A DNA stretch of 41,101 bases, from positions 1 to 41,101 of IMG/VR virus record IMGVR_UViG_3300049789_000030. One strand, written 5' to 3'. Made by a program: the position numbers and the translations under genes. Origin of the DNA: a virus. Of the stretch, positions 5,874-31,523 are shown in pieces (positions within the stretch are counted from its first letter, which is position 1; every line of letters starts with the position of its first letter). The notes beneath the pieces are model-generated. The model had not been told where the DNA came from and ran no database searches. It was given only the letters and a program-made list of their open reading frames with translations.

Positions 5874-6890
5874 TCAGACAGCGTGGGTAAGGTCTAGACA
5901 GGCCCGGATGAATTCCGCCGCCTGTGGGGCGCAGAGTGCATTGCCGTAGCCGCGCAGTCGCACCACTCGGGCGGCAGCCCCTGAAGCCAGCGGGAAAATG
6001 CCGGGTTGAGCTGGCCGCGCTTTTCCGTCCCGGCAGGCGAGCCACTCAGCATCGGACCAGAAATGTGTACCTGCTGTTCGAGGCGCTTGCCGCGCGTGTG
6101 CGCTGCTCGCTTGCTCAGATGCTGCGACGTCCCTGGGTGCCGCATATCGCTGGCACTCGGCGTCGCCCACGATGCCAGCGTCGCCGCCATCCCCAGCGTC
6201 AGGCCAAATCCGTTCCCGTTGATCCCCTTCGCTTTCACTTCCTCGCGGCGCGCTTCCCAGTTCTCGTCCGTATCGTTCTGCGGTCCCGCGTTCGACGTCG
6301 GCCAAGGCGCGAGTTTCGCGTCCCATGCTAGGCTCGCGTTGAATCCTCCGCGCTCTTTCGCTCCCGGTCCCGTTCTGTCGTGCGTCTGAGGCGTGGGCCA
6401 CGAAGTAAAGCCGCTGCCGGATATGCGGCGCCCCGACATCGCACGCGCCAAATGAGGCAAGCCCTGCGGCGTAGTCGCAAGTCTCGAGGTCCGCTCGAAC
6501 ATGGTCGAACCATAGCAGTCCAGTCTTGCCGCCAACTTGCTCGCCAAAGACCGTGACAGGGCGACACTCGCGAATGAGGGCGAACCACGCAGGCCATAGA
6601 TGCCGCTCGTCGGCGTGGGCTTTGCGCTTGCCGGCGACGCTGAAGGGCTGGCAGGGGCAAGAGCCCGTCCAAACAGGTCTGTCATCGGTCCAGCCGGCGC
6701 AGCGCAGGGCATAGGACCAGACGCCGATGCCGGCGAAGAAGTGGCATTGTCGGTATCCGCGCAAATCGTCGGGTCGAACGTCGAGGATCGATCGTTCATC
6801 GACATCGCCCGGTGCGATCAGATTGCGGCGGATGAGTTCTCGGAGCCATGCGGCGGCTTTGGGATCGCTCTCGTTGTAATACGCCCCCAC
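5874..6890 (-). CDS. dcm: DNA (cytosine-5) methyltransferase, 338 aa
   Basis: C5-methyltransferase motifs appear in order: FAGIG (residues 52-56, motif I), PCQPFS with catalytic Cys80 (motif IV), GEQV at 116-119 (motif VI, with Gln where the common form has ENV), RQRLYFVA at 158-165 (motif VIII), and RGYGNALCAPQAAEFI near the C-terminus (motifs IX-X). The N-terminus (MGAYYNESDPKAAAWL, GDVDERSI) matches a phage subfamily I recall well. It probably protects phage DNA from restriction. It is the last gene of the minus-strand operon. A 303-codon frame on the same strand overlaps it completely (5894-6805). Confidence 0.9.
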   Translation of the reverse strand: MGAYYNESDPKAAAWLRELIRRNLIAPGDVDERSILDVRPDDLRGYRQCHFFAGIGVWSYALRCAGWTDDRPVWTGSCPCQPFSVAGKRKAHADERHLWPAWFALIRECRPVTVFGEQVGGKTGLLWFDHVRADLETCDYAAGLASFGACDVGAPHIRQRLYFVAHASDARQNGTGSERARRIQREPSMGRETRALADVERGTAERYGRELGSAPRGSESEGDQRERIWPDAGDGGDAGIVGDAECQRYAAPRDVAASEQASSAHARQAPRTAGTHFWSDAEWLACRDGKARPAQPGIFPLASGAAARVVRLRGYGNALCAPQAAEFIRACLDLTHAV

Positions 6891-7241: not shown

Positions 7242-7450
7242 AACGGTGCACCACAGCCGAAGCAGTTACGGTCCTCCGCCTTGGCTCGACGTCCGCAGTA
7301 AGCACAACACTGCAACGGTTCAGGTTCAGCGCCAAAATCATCCCATGCTTCCCATACCCCGCCAGTCGCCCCTGTGGGACCATGCGGCCAGTTCCAACCC
7401 GTGGCCCCATAGACCCCGCGGACCCCGGGCCAGAATGCCTTCTCGCTCAT
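7238..7450 (-). CDS. Small zinc-ribbon protein, 70 aa
   Basis: The start at 7450 (MSEKAFWPG) forms an ATGA overlap with the upstream gene; an ATG two codons earlier is possible. The N-terminal half is Gly/Trp-rich (ATGWNWPHGPTGATGGVW). The C-terminal half is a clean zinc ribbon, CAYCGRRAKAEDRNCFGCGAPL without its last turn being interrupted, with two CxxCG knuckles. Such proteins often bind nucleic acid or other phage proteins. It also overlaps the next gene by 4 nt. Confidence 0.65.
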   Translation of the reverse strand: MSEKAFWPGVRGVYGATGWNWPHGPTGATGGVWEAWDDFGAEPEPLQCCAYCGRRAKAEDRNCFGCGAPL

Positions 7451-7644
7451 GGGCACAGCCGATAGGACGCCACCCGCTTGCCGCTCGCCAGCGTAACCAT
7501 GGTGGTCACGATCGGCCAGCCCGCCATCTTCAACTCCCAGCAGCGTGCCCCCAGCCGAAAGCAGCCGAACCGGTCCAGCGCCTCCAAGGGCGTGAGGCTT
7601 GCCCCGGTCTCGAGATGCGCCAGGATCGCTTGGGTCTGGTTCAT
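7447..7644 (-). CDS. Helix-turn-helix domain protein, 65 aa
   Basis: The start at 7644 (MNQTQAILAHLETG) is set by an ATGA overlap with the upstream gene. The sequence matches the small phage winged-helix domain of the HTH_39 type: QAILAHLETGASLTPLEALDRFGCFRL, then AARCWELK-type recognition helix (GARCWELKMAGWPIVT) and a SGKRVASYRL wing. The usual length is 65-80 aa. A DNA-binding accessory or regulatory role is likely. Confidence 0.75.
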   Translation of the reverse strand: MNQTQAILAHLETGASLTPLEALDRFGCFRLGARCWELKMAGWPIVTTMVTLASGKRVASYRLCP

Positions 7645-7832
7645 GCCAGCACCGCCTTGACCACCCACGTCTGGGTTTGGAACTTCCTTAGCAATCCCCG
7701 GTGCCCGTTGCGCGCGATCTGCTCCGCTTCACCAGCCGACTCCGCAGGATAAACCCCCAAGGTCTGGTCGGGCACAGCCCCCGCCAAGTCGTGCAGGAAC
7801 ACTCTCCAGTGTGGTAGTTTCGGTGCGCTCAT
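7641..7832 (-). CDS. Hypothetical protein, 63 aa
   Basis: It starts directly after the stop of the upstream gene and ends in an ATGA overlap with the HTH gene. The sequence (WRVFLHDLAGAVPDQTLGVYPAESAGEAEQIA, then TWVVKAVLA) suggests a small beta-alpha-beta domain. No family was recognised. Confidence 0.55.
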   Translation of the reverse strand: MSAPKLPHWRVFLHDLAGAVPDQTLGVYPAESAGEAEQIARNGHRGLLRKFQTQTWVVKAVLA

Positions 7833-8215: not shown

Positions 8216-8256
8216 CCCCTAACCCACTGGCACGGTCAATGCTAGCAGGTTAGGGG
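8216..8256. repeat. Long imperfect hairpin between operon genes
   Basis: CCCCTAACC (8216-8224) and GGTTAGGGG (8248-8256) are perfect 9-bp arms. Inside them CTGGCA and TGCTAG pair with one G-T wobble, leaving a 7-nt loop. No U-tract follows on either strand. It lies in the leader of the 113-aa gene and may be a processing site, a stabiliser or an operator. A second short hairpin, CATGGC/GCCATG (8288-8293/8298-8303), lies next to it. Confidence 0.45.
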
Positions 8257-8342: not shown

Positions 8343-8621
8343 TTATGGGATTTGCACCCCGGCTGCATTGCCGTTTTCTTCCACGCCACCCGGTTTGGTG
8401 CTTAGTCTCGCCTGGAGTGCGGCTGTCGCCGCCCGACGCTTCTGGGGATTCTTGGTGTCCAGCACGCCGATCGTTTGCAGAACGTAAATACGTGCCAAGC
8501 CGAGGCTAAGATCATGTAGCCGTTTGGCTTCTGCATAGGCTTCGGCAAGGGTTCGATGAGGCACCTGGCATCCCATGGTGCTCTCGACCAGAACGTAGTA
8601 GCGTTCTTTGAGGATGGACAA
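8343..8621 (-). CDS. Hypothetical protein behind a structured leader, 92 aa (TTG start proposed)
   Basis: The credible protein begins SILKERYYVLVEST and continues with a helix-rich AEAYAEAKRLHDLSLGLARIYVLQ and a basic tail. I propose the TTG at 8621 as start because an AAGGGG Shine-Dalgarno lies 7 nt upstream. An upstream in-frame ATG at 8726 would add 35 residues of low-complexity sequence and has no ribosome site; a downstream ATG is at 8576. The Shine-Dalgarno lies in the 3' arm of a hairpin whose 5' arm is inside a short leader frame. Function is unknown. Confidence 0.55.
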   Translation of the reverse strand: MSILKERYYVLVESTMGCQVPHRTLAEAYAEAKRLHDLSLGLARIYVLQTIGVLDTKNPQKRRAATAALQARLSTKPGGVEENGNAAGVQIP

Positions 8622-8720
8622 AGAAAAACCCCTTGAGGTCAAAGGCGGATGGTAACGACGTGCTACAACGTCGGCAGGCTCGCGCCTGCTCCCACCTCCA
8701 ACCTGAAGGGGTCTTTTTTG
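8622..8720 (-). promoter_or_regulatory. Structured mRNA leader that can sequester a Shine-Dalgarno
   Basis: On the minus-strand RNA a 12-bp stem with one mismatch is formed by ACCCCTTCAGGT (8712-8701) and ACCTCAAGGGGT (8639-8628). It encloses two adjoining perfect 6-bp hairpins: GCAGGC/GCCTGC with a GCGA tetraloop (8689-8674), and CGACGT/ACGTCG with a 6-nt loop (8673-8656). The GNRA-type tetraloop exists only on the minus strand, which supports that direction. The 3' arm contains the AAGGGG site of the downstream gene. An A-run precedes and a U-run follows the outer stem, so it may also act as a terminator. It matches no riboswitch class I know. Confidence 0.55.
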
Positions 8721-8746
8721 TAGCATGCTGTTACCAACAGCGCCAT
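8663..8746 (-). CDS. 27-aa leader peptide upstream of the structured leader gene
   Basis: The frame starts at ATG 8746 with TAGGAG placed 8 nt upstream, a better site than any other start here. It runs through the 5' arm of the leader stem (KKDPFRLEV part) and stops at TAG (8665-8663), which falls in the loop of the inner CGACGT/ACGTCG hairpin. A translating ribosome would therefore disrupt the outer stem and expose the Shine-Dalgarno of the gene at 8621. The peptide itself has no recognisable motif. Existence is inferred from the site and placement. Confidence 0.4.
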   Translation of the reverse strand: MALLVTACYKKDPFRLEVGAGASLPTL

Positions 8747-8766: not shown

Positions 8767-8943
8767 TCATGTGTCAAGTAGGCGGTAATCCCACCAGTAG
8801 TGCCATGGGATAACCACCCTTTTGCGTTCGATCCATTCCAGCCAAGCGTACTCGTCGTCGATCGCCACCGGGCGCCAAGCAAACCAGCGATGCCATTCCT
8901 GGGAATCGGCCCAGCGCTTTCCGCAATTTGTGCCAAACCTCAT
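8767..8943 (-). CDS. Trp-rich small protein, 58 aa
   Basis: The frame starts at ATG 8943 (MRFGTNCGKRW) and contains nine tryptophans, including HRWFAWRPV, WLEWIERKR and HYWWDYRL. The spacing of WFAW...W.W.E..W..Y resembles small Trp-rich phage proteins of unknown function found near regulatory genes. The ATG follows a TAGGCT -10 box by 7 nt and has no proper Shine-Dalgarno, so the message is probably leaderless. It is the first gene of the minus-strand operon and diverges from the HTH repressor. Confidence 0.65.
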   Translation of the reverse strand: MRFGTNCGKRWADSQEWHRWFAWRPVAIDDEYAWLEWIERKRVVIPWHYWWDYRLLDT

Positions 8944-8945
8944 GC

Positions 8946-8974
8946 TTGACAGCCTAGCAAAGTGTTGCCATCAT
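8946..8974 (+). promoter_or_regulatory. Rightward promoter of the HTH repressor gene
   Basis: TTGACA (8946-8951) is followed by 17 bp and CATCAT (8969-8974, 4 of 6 consensus bases). The repressor ATG at 8981 comes 6 nt after the -10 box and has no Shine-Dalgarno, so the transcript should begin at the start codon. The -10 box lies inside the operator at 8964-8980, which implies autoregulation. Confidence 0.6.
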
Positions 8975-8979
8975 GTCAA
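8951..8979 (-). promoter_or_regulatory. Leftward promoter, overlapping the rightward one
   Basis: On the minus strand TTGACA (8979-8974) is followed by exactly 17 bp and TAGGCT (8956-8951). The ATG of the Trp-rich gene follows 7 nt later. The -35 box lies inside the 17-bp operator at 8964-8980. Each hexamer of this promoter overlaps a hexamer of the rightward promoter by one base, so polymerase cannot occupy both. Confidence 0.6.
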
Positions 8980-8980
8980 C
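8964..8980. promoter_or_regulatory. 17-bp palindromic operator, copy 1
   Basis: GTTGCCATCATGTCAAC is a near-perfect dyad (14 of 17 positions symmetric; half-site GTTGNCAT). It covers the -10 of the rightward promoter and the -35 of the leftward promoter, and abuts the repressor start codon. A second copy with 15 of 17 matches (in reverse orientation) lies at 9162-9178. The 61-aa HTH protein encoded next to it is the obvious ligand. Confidence 0.65.
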
Positions 8981-9166
8981 ATGAATATGCAAACCGTGAT
9001 CGCCACCCTGCGCAAGCGCTGCCAGCGCGAGGGTCAGGCCGAGGTGGCAAGGCAGCTTGGAGTCTCGAGCGCGTACATCTGTCGGGTCCTCAATGGCGAG
9101 AGGAGACTGGGACCGAAGATCATCAAGGCGCTGGGTCTGCGCATCGAACTGACCAACGGTCGTTGA
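8981..9166 (+). CDS. Small HTH transcriptional repressor (Cro/CI-like), 61 aa
   Basis: The protein consists of little more than a helix-turn-helix: GQAEVARQLGVSSAYICRVL (residues 18-37) matches the lambda-repressor-like pattern, followed by NGERRLGPKIIKALGL. Such small proteins bind palindromic operators as dimers. The start at 8981 is favoured by its distance from the promoter; ATG 8987 is two codons in. The gene lies between two near-identical 17-bp palindromes overlapping promoters, so it probably represses itself, the leftward operon and the following rightward operon. Whether it controls lysogeny or only early-gene timing cannot be told, because no integrase is in view. Confidence 0.8.
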   Translation: MNMQTVIATLRKRCQREGQAEVARQLGVSSAYICRVLNGERRLGPKIIKALGLRIELTNGR

Positions 9167-9178
9167 CACGTTGGCAAC
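9162..9178. promoter_or_regulatory. 17-bp palindromic operator, copy 2
   Basis: GTTGACACGTTGGCAAC read on the other strand is GTTGCCAACGTGTCAAC, differing from copy 1 at only two positions. It overlaps the last codons of the repressor gene and covers the -35 box TTGACA (9163-9168) of the next promoter, a position that would block polymerase. Confidence 0.65.
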
Positions 9179-9197: not shown

Positions 9198-9395
9198 ATG
9201 AGCAGGTACTACCGCGAACTGATCGAGCGTCATCCGGCGATGCTCCTCTACGATGAGGGCACGTTGGATCAGCGTCAGACCGAATTCCAGCAGGAGCACC
9301 AGGCTTGGCTTGTGGATCAAGCCGCACAAGCCGAGTACCAATCATGGTTGACTCAACTAGGAGCAGGCAATGACCTGGACCAAGACCGGCGGTGA
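9198..9395 (+). CDS. Hypothetical protein, 65 aa
   Basis: This is the first gene after the second operator-controlled promoter. The protein is helical, rich in Gln, Glu and Tyr (YYRELIERHP, DQRQTEFQQEHQAWLVDQAAQAEYQ without a break), and may form a coiled coil. The gene overlaps the start of the SSB-like gene by 26 nt. No family was recognised. Confidence 0.6.
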   Translation: MSRYYRELIERHPAMLLYDEGTLDQRQTEFQQEHQAWLVDQAAQAEYQSWLTQLGAGNDLDQDRR

Positions 9396-9981
9396 TTTTG
9401 AAGATCCACCTGTAGGCACCCATCTCGCCCGTTGCATCCGTCTGATCGACTTGGGCACACAGCAAGGGGAATGGAAAGGTAAGCCTATCATCCGGCGCCA
9501 GAACGTCATCATGTGGGAGTTGCCCACCGAGCTCATGAAGGAAGGTGAATACGCCGGCAAGCCGTTCGTGGTCACCAAGTTCTATACCACGTCACTCAAC
9601 ACGACTGCTAACCTTTACGCCGATCTCGTCAACTGGCGCGGACAGGAATTCTCTCCGCAGGAACTCGCCGGGTTCGAGGAGAAGAACCTGCTTGACAAGG
9701 TTTGCATGCTCTCACTCACTCGCAATGACAAGGGCAAGGTGCGTGCTACCGGCATCATGGGCAAGCCCAAGGGCATCGTATGCCCACCGCGGGTCAATGA
9801 CTTGGTGTACTTCTCGCTTGAGCCGGACCGCTTCAGCCAAGCCACTTACGATGCGCTCTCCAACGGCTTCAAGGAGATGATCGCCAAGTCTCCTGAATAC
9901 GCAGAACTAAAAGGCGGCGGTGGCAAGCGCACGGTGGCACCAGGTCCGGTCGACCAACTCGACGACGACATCCCATTCTGA
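9370..9981 (+). CDS. Single-stranded DNA-binding-like phage protein, 203 aa
   Basis: The N-terminus (PPVGTHLARCIRLIDLGTQQG, KPIIRRQNVIMWELP) and central part (KFYTTSLN, LVNWRGQEFSPQELAGFE, LLDKVCMLSLTRNDKGK) match a common phage protein that pairs with recombination nucleases. The C-terminus ends in DDDIPF, the acidic tip typical of single-stranded DNA-binding proteins that recruit partners. An OB-fold is likely but not shown by a motif. It is followed after 2 nt by the YqaJ-type nuclease, which supports a joint role in recombination or replication. A CTAGGAG motif precedes the ATG. Confidence 0.75.
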   Translation: MTWTKTGGDFEDPPVGTHLARCIRLIDLGTQQGEWKGKPIIRRQNVIMWELPTELMKEGEYAGKPFVVTKFYTTSLNTTANLYADLVNWRGQEFSPQELAGFEEKNLLDKVCMLSLTRNDKGKVRATGIMGKPKGIVCPPRVNDLVYFSLEPDRFSQATYDALSNGFKEMIAKSPEYAELKGGGGKRTVAPGPVDQLDDDIPF

Positions 9982-9983
9982 CC

Positions 9984-10643
9984 ATGCCTTGGAACTCGCT
10001 CGCTGAGAAAGAACCGTTCTCCGACGCTGAACAGGCCGCAGCCCTTGCCCGCTGGCTGGACGAGCGCTGCGGTTGTCTCACCGCCTCACGCATGGCCGAT
10101 GCCATGGACTTCTTAAAGAACGGGAATCCATCGGCCAAGCGCAAGAACTACATGACCGACCTTCTGGCCGAGCGTCTGACCAGCGTGAGCACCCGGCACT
10201 ATGTCACCCCGGCCATGCAGTGGGGTATGGACACCGAGGCCGAGGCGAAACTGGTGTACCAGGAGATGACCGGTCACGAACTGCTGCCGGCGGAGTTCAT
10301 CCTGCATCCCACGATCGGCAACTTCGGGGCGACACCGGACGGCTTCATCGGCAAGGATGGGCTGCTCGAGGTGAAGTGTCCGACCACAGCGACCTTTGTC
10401 GAGTGGCGCCTGGCGGGCGTGGTGCCGGAAGAGCACCAGCCGCAGATGACCGTGCAATTGCTATGCTCTGACCGCGAATGGGTGGACTTCTTTGCCTACG
10501 ATCCGCGGATCAAGGACCGGAAGCTGAATCATTTCCTGCGCCGGTTTGTGCCGCCAGACTCTTTGGTGCGCGAGGTGACGGAACACGCGATGCGGTTCCT
10601 GGACGAACTCGATGATCTCTTTGACCGTTTCGTGACCGCATGA
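9984..10643 (+). CDS. YqaJ/lambda-exonuclease family recombination nuclease, 219 aa
   Basis: The catalytic pattern of this family is present: the N-terminal CGCLTASRMADAM segment, WGMDTEAEAKLVYQ with acidic residues near 85-87, then GATPDGFIGKDGLLEVKCP, giving Asp119, Glu129 and Lys131 (D-(X)n-ExK). A glutamine-rich motif follows (EEHQPQMTVQL). Members degrade 5' strands to make single-stranded DNA for annealing. The length is normal. The partner is probably the SSB-like protein immediately upstream. Confidence 0.88.
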   Translation: MPWNSLAEKEPFSDAEQAAALARWLDERCGCLTASRMADAMDFLKNGNPSAKRKNYMTDLLAERLTSVSTRHYVTPAMQWGMDTEAEAKLVYQEMTGHELLPAEFILHPTIGNFGATPDGFIGKDGLLEVKCPTTATFVEWRLAGVVPEEHQPQMTVQLLCSDREWVDFFAYDPRIKDRKLNHFLRRFVPPDSLVREVTEHAMRFLDELDDLFDRFVTA

Positions 10644-13817: not shown

Positions 13818-15787
13818 CCTATCTCTGCTGTATCTGCAAGAACGAAGCTAGAGATATTGGTCGCATGCTTAAATCTACGGAACCAGCCGTCGACGGACTC
13901 ATCCTGATCGACACGGGTTCCACTGATGGTACCGCCGCGATTGCGAGAGAGCTATGGCCCAAGGAGAAGTACTTCTATGCCGAACCGTATCTCGAAGCCA
14001 ACGACGCGCAAGGAAGGCTTGCAGACTTTTCGATGGCACGCAACCGTTATCTGGAACTCGCGGACGGAAAATGTGACTGGGTGCTATCCCTCGACGCCGA
14101 CGACGAGCTCAAGACGCCGGCGGCGATCCGTCGCGCGTCCTACCTGACCCAGTTCGACGCCTTCTCCCTCTGGATTCAGGACGGCCCGCACCGCTGGATG
14201 ACCCACCGCATGTGGAAGGCCGACCGCGGCTTACGCTACGAAGGCCGCTGCCACGAGTACCCGAAGTGGAGCGCGGACATCAAGGACACCCATCTCGATC
14301 ACTCGCTCATCATCCACCACGGAGCCGACACGCCGGGACACGAGAACAACAACACGCGCAACCAGCGCATGCTGGAACTGGAGTGGGCCGAGAAGCAGTC
14401 TCCACGCTGTGCCTTCTATCTCGCCAACACTCACCGCGATGGCAAGCGCTGGAAGGAAGCCGCCTACTGGTACGGCATGCGCATCAGCATGGGTCCGGAA
14501 CCGTTCCGCGATGAGTGGCTGTTTGCCCACCTCTATTGCGGGCGGGCAATTGTGGCGCTCAAAGAGAACGATCTGGCTCGGGAAGCCTTCGAGGCGGGGC
14601 GAAAGGCCGCACCGGACTGGTGTGAGTTCACCAACGAACTGGCCTGGCTCGAGTACAACCAAGGGAACTACCGGGAGGCCATTGCCCTGGCCGTGCAGTG
14701 CGTGAACCAGCCCGAGCCGCCGACCCCGCTATGGCGTGAGCCTGCGTCCTACCGGGATGCGCCGGCGCGGATCATCTCTTGGAGCTACGAACACATGGGC
14801 GACATCGGCATGGCGAGCGCATGGTCGAGCATTGCCTGGAGCCTGATCGGCAAGCCGGACAAGGAATGGGAAGAACGCGGGCAGCGACTCGCCCAGAAGG
14901 TCATGGAGATCACCAAGCCGAAAGAGAAGAAGCGCATTGCCCTGCATCGACCTGGCGCGATCGGCGACATCCTCATGACGCTCAACCTGATCCCGACGCT
15001 CAAGGCAAAGTATCCCGAGCACGAGATCGACTACTTTTGCGCTATAGAGTACGGCGAGGAAGAAGCGTTGGGAAACATCATCAAAGCAGCGGGGTGTGCT
15101 TATGTGAACACCCTGACCACGGGTGTCTACGACCACGAATTCGAGTTGATCGGTTATCCGCTGCGAGAGGGCTACCCCGAGAAGCCCATGAGGAAGCACT
15201 TGCTGCACTACTTTGCGGAAGAGCTCGGTCTATCAACTCCGCCGCAGCATGGGTACAGCCAGTGGGAACTACCGCGAGTGAACCTACCCAAGCCGCCAGC
15301 CCCGCTCAAGACCGGACCCTACGCCACCCTCCAGCGTCACGCCGGCTGGTCGAAGTACAAGGAGTGGCCCAGCGAGCGCTGGGACGAAGTCCTGCGGGAT
15401 CTCAATCGTTCCGGTATTCCGGTGTTCGAGATCGACGAGAAGCAGGGCCTACCACTGTCGACTGTGATCGCCCTGATCGCCAATGCCCGCATGCACATTG
15501 GCGTCGACAGCTTCGGCAATCACCTGACTCATATCTTCCAGGTCCCAGGCGTGATCCTCTGGGGTTCAACGCAATGGAATGCCGCAGGCTATCCGCACAA
15601 CGTCAACATCTCGACCGGCATTGCCTGCCAACCCTGCTTCCGCGAGACCCATCCCAACTCGCTGCACCCGCGCCCGCCGTGCATCAACATGAAAGAAAAT
15701 GGCGTCCACAGTTGCATGGACGCCATCACGGTTGACGAAGTGATCGAGGCGGCGACTTCCCTCTGGACCCAATCTATTGCAGCGTGA
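13802..15787 (+). CDS. Fusion glycosyltransferase: GT2 - TPR - GT9, 661 aa
   Basis: The N-terminal third is a GT2 family GT-A domain: TYLCCICKNEARDIGRML, ILIDTGSTDGT (residues 35-44) and LDADDEL (97-103, the DXD metal site). The middle (about 190-360) is helical with TPR-like repeats (LAREAFEAGRKAAPDW, NQGNYREAIALA). From about residue 377 a GT9 heptosyltransferase-like domain follows (HRPGAIGDILMTLNLIP, VDSFGNHLTHIFQVPGVILWGS). GT9 enzymes usually add heptose to LPS core. All three parts are in one uninterrupted frame. It ends in a 14-bp convergent overlap with the metalloprotease gene. Acceptor could be LPS or virion protein. Confidence 0.88.
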   Translation: MPRPLTYLCCICKNEARDIGRMLKSTEPAVDGLILIDTGSTDGTAAIARELWPKEKYFYAEPYLEANDAQGRLADFSMARNRYLELADGKCDWVLSLDADDELKTPAAIRRASYLTQFDAFSLWIQDGPHRWMTHRMWKADRGLRYEGRCHEYPKWSADIKDTHLDHSLIIHHGADTPGHENNNTRNQRMLELEWAEKQSPRCAFYLANTHRDGKRWKEAAYWYGMRISMGPEPFRDEWLFAHLYCGRAIVALKENDLAREAFEAGRKAAPDWCEFTNELAWLEYNQGNYREAIALAVQCVNQPEPPTPLWREPASYRDAPARIISWSYEHMGDIGMASAWSSIAWSLIGKPDKEWEERGQRLAQKVMEITKPKEKKRIALHRPGAIGDILMTLNLIPTLKAKYPEHEIDYFCAIEYGEEEALGNIIKAAGCAYVNTLTTGVYDHEFELIGYPLREGYPEKPMRKHLLHYFAEELGLSTPPQHGYSQWELPRVNLPKPPAPLKTGPYATLQRHAGWSKYKEWPSERWDEVLRDLNRSGIPVFEIDEKQGLPLSTVIALIANARMHIGVDSFGNHLTHIFQVPGVILWGSTQWNAAGYPHNVNISTGIACQPCFRETHPNSLHPRPPCINMKENGVHSCMDAITVDEVIEAATSLWTQSIAA

Positions 15788-17696
15788 CCGTATCCACGAA
15801 CGCCGTATTGTCACCGGTGCCATTAGTCGCGCTCAGGCTGACGGTGTGCGTTCCAGCGGCAACGCTGAACGAATACGCGAACGGCGCGTATGCTGTGTTG
15901 CTCGTCGGAGTGGCCATGCCGATCGTTACGCCATCGACACTCACCGCGATCGGCTGATTGTTCGATCCCCTGCGCGCCGCGTTGAACTTCAACGTGTAGC
16001 TCCCTGCCGCAAGCGTGAGCGTCTGCACCACCGAGCCTGTCACGCCAGTAACGTACGTGCCTGCGGCCCCAGCACTCTGCAAGAACAGGCACTGCACCCC
16101 ATCCGGAGCGGGCGGATTGCCAAAGGCCGCGTTCTTCGCCACGCCAGCATTGCCGACGAACGCCCAGCCGTAAATCCCGGCCGGCGCGTACGTGATCCCG
16201 TTGGTAAAGGGCGATTCGAAACTCCAATTTTGCAGCGTCGTTGGGGCATCACTCATCAACTGCGCCGCCAACCCGCGCACCTGAGATACCTGGGGGTCAG
16301 TGACGGAGCCCACGGTCAACGCGGCAACCGCCGTCTTGAGCGCGGGTACCACTGTGGCGTTTTGCGTTGAACTCGCCCCCGCCGCTGCAACCGCTGGCCC
16401 CACCTGTACCACCGCGCCATTCGCGTCCTGCGACTTCACCAATACTGATAGGTTGCTCTTGCCATCGAGAAACGGAACCCCGACGGGCAGGAACCATGAA
16501 CCAGCAATACCAACGACTTCAGAATCATCCCCTCCGGAGATTACTTCGAACGGTGCTGTAACCATGATTCGAACGCCGGAAGGCGCTGGCGTGTAAGCCG
16601 CATCGGCGCCGATCGGCTGTCGGTACTCCAAGAAGTAGCGCCGATCCGTGACCCCGGTGAGAATCTGCACCCCATTGTTCACGTTCGTTGTCTCCAGCGT
16701 TCCGATCGTGAAGGTCTCTGGCTGGGTGGCAGTGCGCGCATCGTAGGTCTGATGCGTGGCCCACGTGAGAAGCCACTTCTGGAAAGCGTTGTAGTGCCCG
16801 GCGTGTTGGTTGCCCATCACGCTATGCGGATCACCGTACTCAGTGGCCGAGCCAATGCCCTTGCCCACACCCGGCGTGATGCTGCCAGCGTGCATCAACC
16901 CGTAGTTGTGGCCGAGCTCGTGCGCGAACACGAGCAGACCGGCGGCGCTGCCATTCGCGTACGCAAACATCCCCGGCGCGTACGCCAGACCTTTCCACCC
17001 GCACGGCAGCGCAGTGATGAAATAGACATTGGTGTAGCCCTTCATATCGAGCAGGCTCAATCCTGCCGCCGCCATCGCCGCGCCCGTCCACGAAGTAAAG
17101 TCGCACGTAGTCGGTTTCTTGTTGGCGATCTTGGTGACCTGTACGGTCCCACTCCACGCCACCTGACCGTAGGAGACCTCCGTGAACCAACTCTTGGCGA
17201 GCGCCACCTGAGCCGTGATCCCCGTAACGCTCACGGGCGGGTTGGCCTGATCGGAAAACTGGACGATCAAAAAGGCGACGTTGCTTGTCGCCGTCGCCGG
17301 CAACGTGAGCCCCAAGACTTCCAACGAGCTCGGGTCCACTTCATCATCAGCAGCGATGCCGCTCGGGCTCTGAAACTTCTGACCCTTGTTGCCCTTCACG
17401 CGCACCTTGGCGCCGCCTCTCACATTGGGCGGAAGCGTGTCGATGTTCAGGCGCGTTCGCTTGCCCTTGCTATCGACCACGCCGTAATCCCAATCGCCGC
17501 TGCCATCGTAGTCGGCGTGAATGATGTTCAACGTCCCATCGACTTGTACCGCAGCTTGACCTGAGCCCTTGGCGTGTTTGGTCTGGCCGTGGTGAACGCC
17601 AACGGTCTTGCCGTCAACGATGATGGTGACGTCCACCGGATCGGCGAACGCCGAGCTCGCCCACAAAGCAAACAACACAGAGAGAAACAGTTTCAT
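15774..17696 (-). CDS. Secreted zinc metalloprotease, metzincin type (M11-like), 640 aa
   Basis: The N-terminus is a textbook signal peptide (MKLFLSVLFALWASSAFA, cleavage before DP). At about residues 259-271 the zinc site HELGHNYGLMHAG gives HExxHxxxxxH, and about 25 residues later a Met-turn (HSVMGN) followed by HYNAFQKWLLTW, the form seen in gametolysin-like M11 peptidases. The C-terminus (from about 500) is a beta-sandwich with NWSFESPF and GTHTVSLSATNGTGDNTAF, resembling carbohydrate-binding or PEP-CTERM-type domains. It is the last late gene, behind a terminator, with GGGGG before its ATG. Such an exported protease is unusual for a phage; it may act on surface proteins of lysed or infected cells. 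Confidence 0.85.
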   Translation of the reverse strand: MKLFLSVLFALWASSAFADPVDVTIIVDGKTVGVHHGQTKHAKGSGQAAVQVDGTLNIIHADYDGSGDWDYGVVDSKGKRTRLNIDTLPPNVRGGAKVRVKGNKGQKFQSPSGIAADDEVDPSSLEVLGLTLPATATSNVAFLIVQFSDQANPPVSVTGITAQVALAKSWFTEVSYGQVAWSGTVQVTKIANKKPTTCDFTSWTGAAMAAAGLSLLDMKGYTNVYFITALPCGWKGLAYAPGMFAYANGSAAGLLVFAHELGHNYGLMHAGSITPGVGKGIGSATEYGDPHSVMGNQHAGHYNAFQKWLLTWATHQTYDARTATQPETFTIGTLETTNVNNGVQILTGVTDRRYFLEYRQPIGADAAYTPAPSGVRIMVTAPFEVISGGDDSEVVGIAGSWFLPVGVPFLDGKSNLSVLVKSQDANGAVVQVGPAVAAAGASSTQNATVVPALKTAVAALTVGSVTDPQVSQVRGLAAQLMSDAPTTLQNWSFESPFTNGITYAPAGIYGWAFVGNAGVAKNAAFGNPPAPDGVQCLFLQSAGAAGTYVTGVTGSVVQTLTLAAGSYTLKFNAARRGSNNQPIAVSVDGVTIGMATPTSNTAYAPFAYSFSVAAGTHTVSLSATNGTGDNTAFVDTVTLQ

Positions 17697-20257: not shown

Positions 20258-21577
20258 TCAGTAAGTCCAGTCCGTGGCAAAGCCTTGCCCCTGGAGCGTG
20301 GACAGGTCCTTCTCGATGTCACCTACATCGGTACGAACGATCACGTCGTTGGGAATCTCCAGCGACTTGACCGCCTTGTACGAATTGCGCGCCGACTCGC
20401 GCACACTATCCCCGACCCCGGTGGCCACCACCAAGTAGTCGCCGCAGGACACCATGCAGCGCTCGTCCTCGAGCCGATCGTTGGGCGCCATGCCCAACAT
20501 CACGTCGCTGGGAGCGAGATAGTCGCGGTACTCGTTCTTTGGATCAAGGTGCCAGATCGGGATACCCGATACCTTCTTCTCGTCCTTGTCGGGGTAGGGG
20601 AACGGAGGAATGGCCATCACCACCCCGGTCGCATGACTGTTGCTCGGTACGAAAGTGTTTTTGCCGTCGATCAGGTTCACCATCCACTCACACGGCTCGG
20701 GGTGGAGTGACTGGCAGATGTTGAACGACGGCCAGCCCAGGCGCATGGTGAATTCCAGCGGGCGTGGATCTCCGTTCTCGTCGATCATGGCACCCACCGC
20801 GACCGAGCCGGTGCAGCCGATCTTGATGAGTTCGCGCTCGAGCGGCAGCAACATCTCCTTGGCCAGCTGCGAGTCCTCGACGTACTTGCAGCACGTTCCC
20901 ATCTCGCCGGTGTTGGGACCGTAGTCCTCATTCATGAGCTTCTTGTGCTCGAAGAATTCCTCGAAGTAGGGCGCGAAGCCTTTGCTCCCAAGCCAGCCGG
21001 CGACGCCGAACTCGACACCTTCGATCTTCTCCTGGAGCATGAAGCGGCCCTGCTTGTCCCGGTTCAACTCCGCCCAGCGGCGCAGCATGTAGAGCATGTC
21101 CTTGGCCGACTTCGCCACGTAGGAGAGCGCCTTGTCCTTGTCGCCATCGGGCTTGCAGACAAAGGTAGTGTCCGCATGCTCGCGCACGTAGGCTTCGGCC
21201 TTGCGATAGTCCGAGAAGGTCTCGTACTCGATGATGTTGATGCCGTTCTTGCGCAGGAACTCCTGACCCTTGCCGCGGTTCAACTCGAGTTCCGACGCCG
21301 CGAACGATGGGCCGAAGATCGGATAGCCCTTCTGGCGATAGACGTCGAGCTCACGCAGCCACTTCACGTTATCCGACGTAATGACCAGATCGGCCCAGTT
21401 CATGTGTGGTTGCCACTCTTCGCCCTTGATCTTCTCGACCAGGCCATCCCCCACCTTGGAGGGCTGCTTGGTTTCCTTGTCCGCGGCCATGCACACGCGC
21501 ACGTAGTGCCCCGCGCTCATGCAGCGAAGCGCGAAGTTGAGAAACGATTGTGTGGCGTCGAGACAGAGGACGTTCAC
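20258..21577 (-). CDS. PurD-like ATP-grasp ligase, 439 aa
   Basis: The chain follows glycinamide ribonucleotide synthetase: GYPIFGPSFAASELELNRGKGQEFL, a KNGINIIEYETFSDYRKAEAYV segment, CKPDGDKDKALSYV in the ATP-binding part, and PLEFTMRLGWPSFN near residue 285 where PurD has LEFN.R.GDPE. The Asn and the Asp/Glu of that motif are replaced, and the GGREH segment at the N-terminus is missing. It is therefore a diverged ATP-grasp ligase, perhaps with another acceptor. Its position among virion and lysis genes, beside a glycosyltransferase, is not that of a purine-synthesis gene. Its start overlaps the GT stop by ATGA. Confidence 0.75.
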   Translation of the reverse strand: MNVLCLDATQSFLNFALRCMSAGHYVRVCMAADKETKQPSKVGDGLVEKIKGEEWQPHMNWADLVITSDNVKWLRELDVYRQKGYPIFGPSFAASELELNRGKGQEFLRKNGINIIEYETFSDYRKAEAYVREHADTTFVCKPDGDKDKALSYVAKSAKDMLYMLRRWAELNRDKQGRFMLQEKIEGVEFGVAGWLGSKGFAPYFEEFFEHKKLMNEDYGPNTGEMGTCCKYVEDSQLAKEMLLPLERELIKIGCTGSVAVGAMIDENGDPRPLEFTMRLGWPSFNICQSLHPEPCEWMVNLIDGKNTFVPSNSHATGVVMAIPPFPYPDKDEKKVSGIPIWHLDPKNEYRDYLAPSDVMLGMAPNDRLEDERCMVSCGDYLVVATGVGDSVRESARNSYKAVKSLEIPNDVIVRTDVGDIEKDLSTLQGQGFATDWTY

Positions 21578-28565: not shown

Positions 28566-29193
28566 CGCCTTTCAGTCGGCTCAGGAGCAACAGGATCGGG
28601 AGCAGCGCCCCCGCGTTGGCCTGTGCTCCGCTCGCCGGCGTCGTTGTACCACCGCCGGACACTCCTGCACCCGTTGTTCCACCACCCGCTGCCCCACTCA
28701 ACAGATTGCCCGCGGTCTGACCCAAGCTGGGTATCTTCCCCAAGAGACTCCCGGGACCGAACATACCGCTCGCCCCACCGACCGCGCCGATCGCGCTGCC
28801 CATCCCCATGGTCATGAGGCTCATGGCGATCATCGGAAACCACCGGCTCATGAAGTCGGTGTCCTCCGGGTGCTTGATGTTGTAGACCGAAGTGATGTCG
28901 CCGTAATTGGTGTCCTTGGCCACCCCTGCCGGATTGATGACCTGTCCCGTCCCGCTGATCCCCTTGGGGTCCCAGAATGATCCAAAGGCCGCAGTCTTTC
29001 CTCCGGGCAACTGCGCCGCGGGGATGTTACTCCCCAAATAGTTATAGGTGGTCTGTCCGGCATCGTTGGTCCCGGCAGCGGAGATGTACCCCTTGTTCAG
29101 GAAGTACTGGGTCTCCGCGTCCGGTGCTCCCGTGGTCGAGTAGCCCCCGGCGTACTTGAAGAGATCGGCCAGCGGATAGGAGGGATCAGCCAT
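28558..29193 (-). CDS. Virion protein with hydrophobic C-terminus, 211 aa
   Basis: The first 120 residues look soluble (DLFKYAGGYSTTGAPDAETQYFLNKG), followed by a Met/Gly-rich hydrophobic stretch (WFPMIAMSLMTMGMGSAIGAVGG) and a Gly/Thr-rich low-complexity part ending in LLPILLLLSRLKGGG. It overlaps the tail tubular-like gene by one base (TGATG). Its hydrophobic glycine-rich make-up matches its downstream neighbour, so it is probably another internal or ejected protein. Confidence 0.6.
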   Translation of the reverse strand: MADPSYPLADLFKYAGGYSTTGAPDAETQYFLNKGYISAAGTNDAGQTTYNYLGSNIPAAQLPGGKTAAFGSFWDPKGISGTGQVINPAGVAKDTNYGDITSVYNIKHPEDTDFMSRWFPMIAMSLMTMGMGSAIGAVGGASGMFGPGSLLGKIPSLGQTAGNLLSGAAGGGTTGAGVSGGGTTTPASGAQANAGALLPILLLLSRLKGGG

Positions 29194-31523
29194 CAGGATT
29201 CACCCGAACTGGCAGTCACTTCGAGGGCTTCCCAACGCAAGGGCTGGTCATCGGTGCGCGTAAGCCGGAACGCGCGTCGGCGCGCCGAGCCACCCCGGTT
29301 GAGCATGGGCCGCATGCGCGACTCATCGAAGATGCCCCACGTGTTCCACGTCTGGTAGTCGTCGTCGCTCACCTCGAGCGTCGATGTTGCCGTGTTCAGG
29401 TCCGCGACCAGATCGGCCTGGCCGAAGAACTTGCGCACCAGCGTATCGCCATCGATCTTGTCGGTCTGGGAGCGGGTATCGAAGGCGATCCCATCGTCGT
29501 CGTAGAGCTCGAACGACGCCGAGAAGATCATGCCGCCAAAGTCATCACGACCAAACCAGATGTCGCCGCCCGTGAAGAACTCGGTGAGCGCGATCGAGTA
29601 CGGCACGGAACCATCCGCCGTGACATTCGAGTTCCACGGCCCCCAGACGCCGGTGTCCATGTCGTAGGCGATGCAGCCGCCGCCAAAGAACTGGAGCACG
29701 TAGAAGGTGTGACCCTCCATGCCGGTGATCCATGAATTCACCGCGGAATTCATGTTAACGTTCAGCACCTTGTCGACCCACTTGTTCGACACCTTCTTCG
29801 GGTTGAGACCGTCGAAGAGGTACACCCCCCAGTTGCGCTCCTTGGTCTGAGCCACCCAGATCAGCGTGTTCTTGGCTGATTGCAGGGTCGAGGCAAACGA
29901 CAATCCGACCTTGATGTTGGTCGACTGGTACGGCGAGAGCGCAATCCCCGGCGCCGGATTGCCGGCATCGTAGAAGAACTGGCAGGTGTATTGCCCGAAC
30001 GCCACCAGGTAGTTGAGGTACTTGGCGATCGCCACACCCGGATCATCCTCATAGCTCGCCACCACGAATTGCAGGCTCGGCCACTGGGTCGCGTCCTCGA
30101 GCGCGCAGGCGCGAATGGTGCCATCCGGCTCCATCACGTAGGCGAAGAGGTTGAGCACCACCAGCCCCGGCACCGTGATGGTCGGGTAATTGGTGTCGGT
30201 CACCGGAATGAGCGTGCCGGAAGACAGAATCCAGAAGTTGCTCTGATTCTTGATGAGCAGCTGCGCGCCATTCAGGAAGGTATTGAACTGGTACGGCTGG
30301 CCCGAGAGTACCGGACTCATGGTGAAGGTCGACGGCAGGGCAAGATCCATGGTGCCGTACCAGACTTCCTGCAAGTCGGTGGCGCCGTCGTTCCCACCCA
30401 GCATCCACATGTCGAGATAGCGGAATGAATTCACCGTCACCGGCGTCTGGAAGGTCACCGCTGCCGCACCACCGCGCGGAGTGAAGCCTGCGCCACCGCT
30501 CACTTGGTTCCACGTGGAACCATCGGGCGAGCTCGCCCATGTGTCGCTCACCAGCACTCCGCCCGCATCACCACCGATCAGCCACATGTGGTTGTTGTAG
30601 ACGGTGTAAGCCATGATGGCCTTGCCGGTGGTGAACACCGAGTTGACGTTGGTCCACGTCTGTCCATCCGGCGATGAAGACACCTGGTTGATGGTGATGG
30701 TGCCTGCCGCATCGGCATAGCCGCCGACAATCCAGACCTTGTTCTGGAAGAAGAACATGGCGTTGAGGAATCGCGGCGTGCCCGTCGCAGTGGCCGTCAA
30801 CTGAGTCCAAGTCTCCCCATCGGAAGAGAACCACACGTCGTCGAGAAGCGTGCTGGTTCCATCTTCTCCGCCGTACAAGTAGATGCCATTGTTGGCCGCG
30901 ACCGCGGTGAAGTTGACCCGAGCACTCCATGCCGCGGCAGCGGTCACCTGCGTCCAGTTGGCCCCGTCGCTGGTGCTCCAGACGTCGTTCATCACCCCGA
31001 CGTGCATGTCATCGTTTTCTAGCCCGCCAAGCAAGAACATCTGACCATTGAAGGCCACGCACTGGTGTCCCTGCCGGTGTCCGAAAGGCGCACCGCTCGC
31101 GCTCTGGGACCAGGTCACGCCATCGGACGAGTACGACACGTCGGCTCGCAACTGGGTGGCCTCGCCCCCGATCACGTAGATGCGGCCTTGAAACACCGTC
31201 GCACTGAAGAACGCCCGCCCATACCACGCCGGCGTGGTTGCTTGGGTGAAGGTCGAGCCGGTGCTGCCCACGAACGATGCCCCACCACTGCGGTACATCG
31301 TGTCGCTGTAAACGGCGTAGACATTGTTGCCGTAGAAGGTCGCTCCCTGTGGGTCGGTGCCGGTGCCGAAATCGTGATTGAGCACCGTGCCGGGGCGCTT
31401 GAGCACGTAAAGCTTGTCGCCCTGCTTGTCGAAGCAGCCGTTCTGGACGAAGGAGTCCACGACGCCCAGCGTGCCATCGCGGGACATGAACTCCTGCACC
31501 AGAGGTAGGCGCGACTTGGGCAT
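29193..31523 (-). CDS. Tail tubular B-like protein with kelch-type propeller, 776 aa
   Basis: The N-terminus (RLPLVQEFMSRDGTLGVVDSFVQNG, LYVLKRPGT) and the C-terminal two fifths (FLNGAQLLIKNQSNFWILSSG, YDMDTGVWGPWN, WNTWGIFDESRMRPMLNRGGS) follow the pattern of podovirus tail tubular/nozzle proteins. Between about residues 120 and 390 lie at least five kelch-like blades, each with a SSDGxTW-type segment and a GG strand (MFLLGG, IYLYGG, VWIVGG, MWLIGG, MWMLGG). The insert would form a beta-propeller on the tail. It is coupled to the P22 gp4-like gene by TGATG. Confidence 0.75.
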   Translation of the reverse strand: MPKSRLPLVQEFMSRDGTLGVVDSFVQNGCFDKQGDKLYVLKRPGTVLNHDFGTGTDPQGATFYGNNVYAVYSDTMYRSGGASFVGSTGSTFTQATTPAWYGRAFFSATVFQGRIYVIGGEATQLRADVSYSSDGVTWSQSASGAPFGHRQGHQCVAFNGQMFLLGGLENDDMHVGVMNDVWSTSDGANWTQVTAAAAWSARVNFTAVAANNGIYLYGGEDGTSTLLDDVWFSSDGETWTQLTATATGTPRFLNAMFFFQNKVWIVGGYADAAGTITINQVSSSPDGQTWTNVNSVFTTGKAIMAYTVYNNHMWLIGGDAGGVLVSDTWASSPDGSTWNQVSGGAGFTPRGGAAAVTFQTPVTVNSFRYLDMWMLGGNDGATDLQEVWYGTMDLALPSTFTMSPVLSGQPYQFNTFLNGAQLLIKNQSNFWILSSGTLIPVTDTNYPTITVPGLVVLNLFAYVMEPDGTIRACALEDATQWPSLQFVVASYEDDPGVAIAKYLNYLVAFGQYTCQFFYDAGNPAPGIALSPYQSTNIKVGLSFASTLQSAKNTLIWVAQTKERNWGVYLFDGLNPKKVSNKWVDKVLNVNMNSAVNSWITGMEGHTFYVLQFFGGGCIAYDMDTGVWGPWNSNVTADGSVPYSIALTEFFTGGDIWFGRDDFGGMIFSASFELYDDDGIAFDTRSQTDKIDGDTLVRKFFGQADLVADLNTATSTLEVSDDDYQTWNTWGIFDESRMRPMLNRGGSARRRAFRLTRTDDQPLRWEALEVTASSGES

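Follow-up and report, generated by a model that had tools for sequence, protein, structure and literature searches.

A proposed single-repressor early-control module with interlocked promoters and a repeated operator in a viral DNA sequence

The window analysed here, a stretch of 41,101 nucleotides of viral DNA, contains a gene for a 61-aa HTH protein preceded by two opposed promoters that share one operator. An earlier note on this DNA called the arrangement a compact genetic switch and inferred bistable behavior from it. Our analysis agrees with the earlier note on the overlapping promoters and the shared operator, but not on a switch in the bistable sense. We consider it likely that the locus serves early control through a single repressor, and that the HTH protein (hereafter R) would shut three early promoters, including its own, in a Cro-like manner.

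Interlocked promoters and operator copies

The promoter of the HTH gene, PR, is located on the plus strand at positions 8946–8974 (TTGACA at 8946–8951, 17 bp and CATCAT at 8969–8974, with a TG preceding the -10) and scores 10/12 in the match to the sigma70-type consensus. The promoter of the leftward gene, PL, is located on the minus strand at positions 8951–8979 (TTGACA at 8979–8974, 17 bp and TAGGCT at 8956–8951) and scores 9/12, its -10 by itself giving 3/6. The two promoters are opposed and interlocked within 34 bp (8946–8979), and each -10 has exactly one base in common with the -35 of the opposite promoter (8951 and 8974). The start codons, ATG at 8981 on the plus strand and ATG at 8943 on the minus strand, are found 6 and 7 nt 3' of the respective -10s, and two complete promoters and an operator are accommodated in the 37 bp between them. 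These elements can be read directly in the sequence as the earlier note had described them, and its statement that polymerase can hold only one of the two promoters at once follows from the geometry, since the core elements interlock.

The operator O1 (8964–8980, strandless) is the 17-bp palindrome GTTGCCATCATGTCAAC, in which 7/8 palindromic pairs match. It covers the -10 of PR and the -35 of PL, the latter being inside one of its half-sites, and the R gene begins directly after it, as had been noted before: O1 ends at 8980 and the frame runs from 8981 to 9166. Our study also uncovered a second copy, O2 (9162–9178, strandless; GTTGACACGTTGGCAAC), which was absent from the earlier note. O2 is 198 bp from O1 in the opposite orientation, overlaps the stop codon of the R gene and shows 15/17 identity to O1 reversed, that is, 2 mismatches, whereas operator matches with at most 2 mismatches have an expectation of 0.02 per shuffled window. 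A matrix scan of the window gave 25.7 bits for O1, 23.4 for O2 and 9.7 for the next site, with a matrix built from O1 and O2 themselves. Both operators have the half-site GTTGACA facing the promoter and GTTGCCA in the opposite half, and conservation of GTTGACA in the promoter-facing half is expected where the half-site doubles as a -35. A possible weak site, O0 (8945–8961, strandless; CTTGACAGCCTAGCAAA), is located 2 bp from O1 over the -35 of PR and the -10 of PL. It ranks 12 among 41,101 positions with a matrix from the O1/O2 half-sites, the -35 hexamer itself giving much of the score, and we tentatively regard it as an additional weak operator site.

Single features of this locus are weak when compared with chance. 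The window contains eighteen 17-mers with at least 7/8 palindromic pairs, so palindrome quality is not rare, and a shuffled window is itself expected to contain about one promoter-like site that scores 10/12 or more. The joint pattern, on the other hand, is far beyond chance. In 200 dinucleotide shuffles, an exact opposed TTGACA pair at the 34-bp spacing was seen a single time. No sigma70-type site in the 41 kb ranks above PR, PL and a third promoter, P2; other 9/12 sites equal the total of PL, but none of them is at leaderless distance from any scored gene start.

This part of the window is rich in promoter-like sites, with four of the best falling within 450 bp; the fourth, on the minus strand at 8777–8748 (TTGACA, 18 nt, TAGTCT; 9/12), is found at the end of the leftward gene.

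A third promoter and the predicted transcript starts

P2 (9163–9191, plus strand; TTGACA, 17 nt, TAGGAT), also missing from the earlier note, has its -35 in a half-site of O2. PL and P2 display a common layout, consisting of GTTGACA, the rest of the operator, 7 nt, TAGG[C/A]T, 6–7 nt and ATG, with a 17-nt spacer, and the -10 of P2 is the better of the two. A search for this layout in viral contigs gave no match, and a search of viral contigs for the pattern of operator plus ATG gave only one, which is within a coding region and represents chance.

Start points were predicted by the rule that the -10 ends at position -7, and gene starts were scanned for a -10 ending 5–8 nt before the codon. The predicted +1 of PR (8981) and that of P2 (9198) are the A of an ATG, and that of PL (8944/8943) is on the ATG or one base before it. 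Promoters with leaderless spacing score 10, 10 and 9 at the starts 8981, 9198 and 8943, the only three of the 46 gene starts scored that reach at least 9/12, with all remaining ones at 7 or below. The same threshold is reached at 4 of the 1302 ATGs on both strands of the window. In addition, the ATG of the HTH gene has no good Shine-Dalgarno sequence, with a duplex of -1.9 kcal/mol versus -8 to -12 for well-led genes. Since each of the three promoters has its predicted +1 at the A of its ATG or one base away, their mRNAs are probably leaderless, a conclusion from spacing that the earlier note had not drawn.

The -10s of P2 and PL, TAGGAT and TAGGCT, are also weak Shine-Dalgarno sequences (-4.9 kcal/mol each), which could be used in translating read-through RNA. 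Such sites could instead be their only role, a point that counts against the shut-off module together with the 3/6 match of the PL -10. On this alternative PL would be no real promoter: its TTGACA, which belongs to the operator half-site sequence GTTGACAT anyway, would be operator only, TAGGCT would serve in ribosome pairing, the leftward gene would be read from elsewhere, and O1 would be left with the autoregulation of PR. We consider this unlikely, given that P2 has an identical layout with a better -10, that the predicted +1 of PL is next to the ATG, and that the sole DNA upstream of the leftward gene is the HTH gene, in antisense. PL, despite its poor -10, appears to be real because the layout of P2 and the half-site pattern match it, which is indirect support.

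The HTH protein and the surrounding genes

The R gene (8981–9166, plus strand) encodes a protein that is probably of the XRE/Cro type, as judged by profile matches and a structural model. Comparison with Pfam gave HTH_31 at E=3e-5 (24.6 versus a gathering score of 27) and HTH_3 at E=3e-4 (21.1 versus 23), both just under the cut-offs, and PHROG transcriptional repressor families were matched at E about 5e-6. The frame has the best codon score of the six frames (GC3 0.77). The model is helical, with helices at residues 3–17, 19–26, 30–37 and 45–50 (mean pLDDT 79, fair confidence), and its layout fits the XRE/Cro class. Distant HTH relatives only were detected, in Synechococcus phage Sc-Yong805-2 (39%) and a Deinococcus plasmid (41%), and none was found in the viral and genome contig collections. 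The earlier note had proposed the 61-aa protein as the operator ligand, and R does appear to be the likely one, because two sites alike at 15/17 positions flank its gene. The HTH matches under the Pfam gathering scores argue against the shut-off module, as does the result that the collections searched yielded no homologue of R accompanied by this operator. A role of R as the antitoxin of a toxin-antitoxin pair was rejected, as the Y4mF/HigA models gave only E 0.02–0.04, far under the cut-off.

The best fold matches of the model in the PDB include C.BclI, C.Esp1396I and C.AhdI, with P22 C2 and the 434 repressor also among the matches, and would be in line with R being a restriction-modification controller (C protein) that activates and then represses its own gene. 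A DNA methyltransferase gene at 5874–6890 would also agree with such a role, as would the leaderless C transcript of AhdI and the overlapping C and M promoters of EcoRV (PMC5333194). Nevertheless, the fold matches are weak, with E at least 0.04, and of a kind that XRE proteins give in general. The methyltransferase gene stands 2 kb off behind other genes, no endonuclease gene adjoins R, which is followed by genes for a 65-aa protein, a replication protein and YqaJ, and a tandem operator that includes an upstream activating site is not clearly discernible. A C protein is therefore extremely unlikely.

On the left, PL would transcribe a gene for a 58-aa Trp-rich protein (8767–8943, minus strand), whose frame is the best of six by codon use and which has weak tblastn matches, at E from 0.05 up, in numerous phages unrelated to each other. 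An alignment of seven members of this family revealed 8 invariant residues and the motif WHxWFAWxPV...WLExVxRR. No Pfam or PHROG model matched the 58-aa protein of the window and no HTH or other DNA-binding domain was found in it, and the product is most likely a real protein without HTH. Six sequences of the family come from Rhizobium, Pseudomonas, Arthrobacter and Rhodococcus phages.

The 58-aa gene is followed by a branched hairpin (8618–8724, minus strand) that ends in GGGGUUUUUCUUU, with -57 kcal/mol and z=-7.6 versus shuffles, and which is probably the terminator of the PL transcript. The plus strand of the same segment is likewise structured (z=-5.7), and U-runs are present on both strands. 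The 3' arm of the hairpin on the minus strand, AAGGGGTTTTTCTTTG, could carry the Shine-Dalgarno sequence of a leftward gene that begins with TTG and whose frame ends at 8343, in an attenuator-like arrangement. The segment 8160–8345 has no clear gene and many inverted repeats, such as CCCCTAACC...GGTTAGGGG at 8216–8256. A gene for a winged-HTH protein is located further left, at 7447–7668.

On the right, the first gene behind P2 encodes a 65-aa protein (9198–9395, plus strand) with a relative at 51% identity over 43 aa, located just upstream of the YqaJ gene in one of the loci found via YqaJ. It is followed on the plus strand by genes for a phage replication initiation protein of the NGO0469 family (9370–9981; NF046043, E=4e-50, 170 bits versus a cut-off of 75) and for a YqaJ-like viral recombinase/exonuclease (9984–10643; PF09588, E=2e-18). 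In gonococcal prophages, ngo0469 is annotated as acting in replication initiation (PMC12186493). An alignment search with the replication protein of the window gave no usable conserved stretch.

Comparison of the segment from 7.8 to 10.7 kb with phages by blastn gave no match, and the collections searched yielded no relative that shares the layout of the locus. The HTH gene is absent from the five relatives found via YqaJ and the eight found via the methyltransferase, and Rfam gave no credible match. In a scan of the larger late genes from 15.7 to 41 kb, PHROGs identified no terminase, portal or major capsid protein, so that the record is incomplete or else very divergent. Late-strand genes with recognisable domains include those at 15774–17696, with a gametolysin-type metallopeptidase domain (Peptidase_M11, E 8e-9), and at 20258–21577, with an ATP-grasp domain (GARS_A, E 3e-14). 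A 776-aa protein of the late region (29193–31523) has Kelch repeats (PF24681, E 3e-34) and a C-terminal part that resembles a head-closure PHROG.

The proposed circuit and comparable systems

We infer sigma70-type promoter use, start points, binding by R and the dynamics of the circuit from the DNA itself. In the proposed module, just after infection and without R, the promoters would fire, PR and PL being mutually exclusive, and the three mRNAs, starting at or next to the AUG, would be translated without a leader. P2 would feed the 65-aa gene and, since they come next in line, also the genes for replication initiation and YqaJ. As R accumulates, its dimer would bind O1 and O2. At O1 it would cover PR, its own promoter, at the -10 and the start point, together with the -35 of the divergent PL, and for this reason R should repress both sides at once; at O2 it would cover the -35 of P2. 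All three promoters, PR included, would be closed, and expression is expected to peak early and then to cease or be kept low, with no toggle. A single repressor with negative autoregulation should have one steady state because R production falls monotonically with R, and promoter occlusion alone creates no second steady state; bistability would need an opposing regulator.

These considerations bear on the earlier proposal of bistable behavior. In a bistable lysis-lysogeny switch, the HTH protein and a leftward product would antagonise each other via the shared operator. Divergent overlapping promoters with one operator do resemble a cI/cro region, both mRNAs are predicted to be leaderless, as reported for the cI and cro mRNAs of PY54 (PMC4488713), and the winged-HTH protein is encoded further left. 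We nonetheless judge a switch of this kind very unlikely: O1 should repress PR and PL together, the first leftward product has no HTH, the strong terminator-like hairpin separates the 58-aa gene from the genes further left, and no match to Phage_integrase or Resolvase and no second HTH_3 protein were found in the record, which may be incomplete, in addition to the single steady state expected from monotone negative autoregulation. A more specific variant, for which we see only a slim chance, is that the 58-aa protein antagonises R (as an antirepressor) or PR, turning the strand-exclusive binding of polymerase on 34 bp into a double-negative loop. If true, the locus would be a minimal decision circuit of two leaderless genes, its outcome set by whichever polymerase lands first, and the small WHxWFAWxPV-type proteins that are widespread in phages would gain a function.

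R could also act alone as an immunity repressor that silences a prophage, with a low, self-limited level of R holding PL and P2 off. The presence of its operator at all early promoters of the locus, including one before the replication genes, is consistent with this idea. The 61-aa protein, however, has no cleavable C-terminal domain, and the missing integrase and resolvase matches also argue against it, though the record may be incomplete; we regard such a role as quite unlikely.

The single-repressor module that we favor can be compared with phage lambda. Lambda Cro is an HTH repressor of about 60–66 aa with 17-bp operators that represses the early leftward and rightward promoters and itself, with replication genes downstream. 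R is similar in size, in operator length, in the proposed repression of early promoters and of itself, and in the replication genes downstream. In contrast to lambda, no cI partner is detectable here, the operators are single and not in triplets, and the second site comes after the repressor gene; R also has no sequence relation to lambda Cro beyond the HTH class.

In the telomere phages PY54, N15 and phiKO2, the cI/cro regions combine a small Cro-type repressor, divergent promoters, leaderless mRNAs and a nearby palindromic operator, much as is proposed for the present locus, and in PY54 the leaderless cI and cro mRNAs come from the divergent promoters (PMC4488713). Their opposing gene, however, encodes a second repressor, CI, whereas here it has no HTH; their Cro is reported to suppress cI and not itself (PMC4488713), whereas here the operator covers the -10 and start of the gene of R. 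The second operator copy, which would control a third promoter, is a further difference.

The EcoRV C/M pair is also comparable, since its divergent core promoters overlap and polymerase uses only one of them (PMC5333194), and both loci have exclusive promoters and a small regulator encoded by one of the genes. The EcoRV C protein has no direct effect on PM and activates PCR from a distal site, and its transcript is not leaderless (PMC5333194), whereas in the present locus one site would block both promoters. Finally, in phage MW202545 a 66-aa HTH gene (annotated as antitoxin) adjoins the relative of the NGO0469-type replication gene, with an inverted repeat in the gap; it differs in that the HTH gene is transcribed away from the replication gene, the gap is 114 bp, the repeat is TTAGAT-N12-ATCTAA and the Shine-Dalgarno sequence is normal.

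Each ingredient of the locus is known from other phages or restriction systems, and the locus extends a familiar kind of control by bringing them together within a single compact module whose operator is repeated. It would represent a very compact form of phage early control, in which a 61-aa protein would govern three transcripts, predicted to be leaderless, through two copies of a single 17-bp site, with the replication genes among its targets, and the layout is simple enough for promoter occlusion and leaderless translation to be tested with short oligonucleotides.
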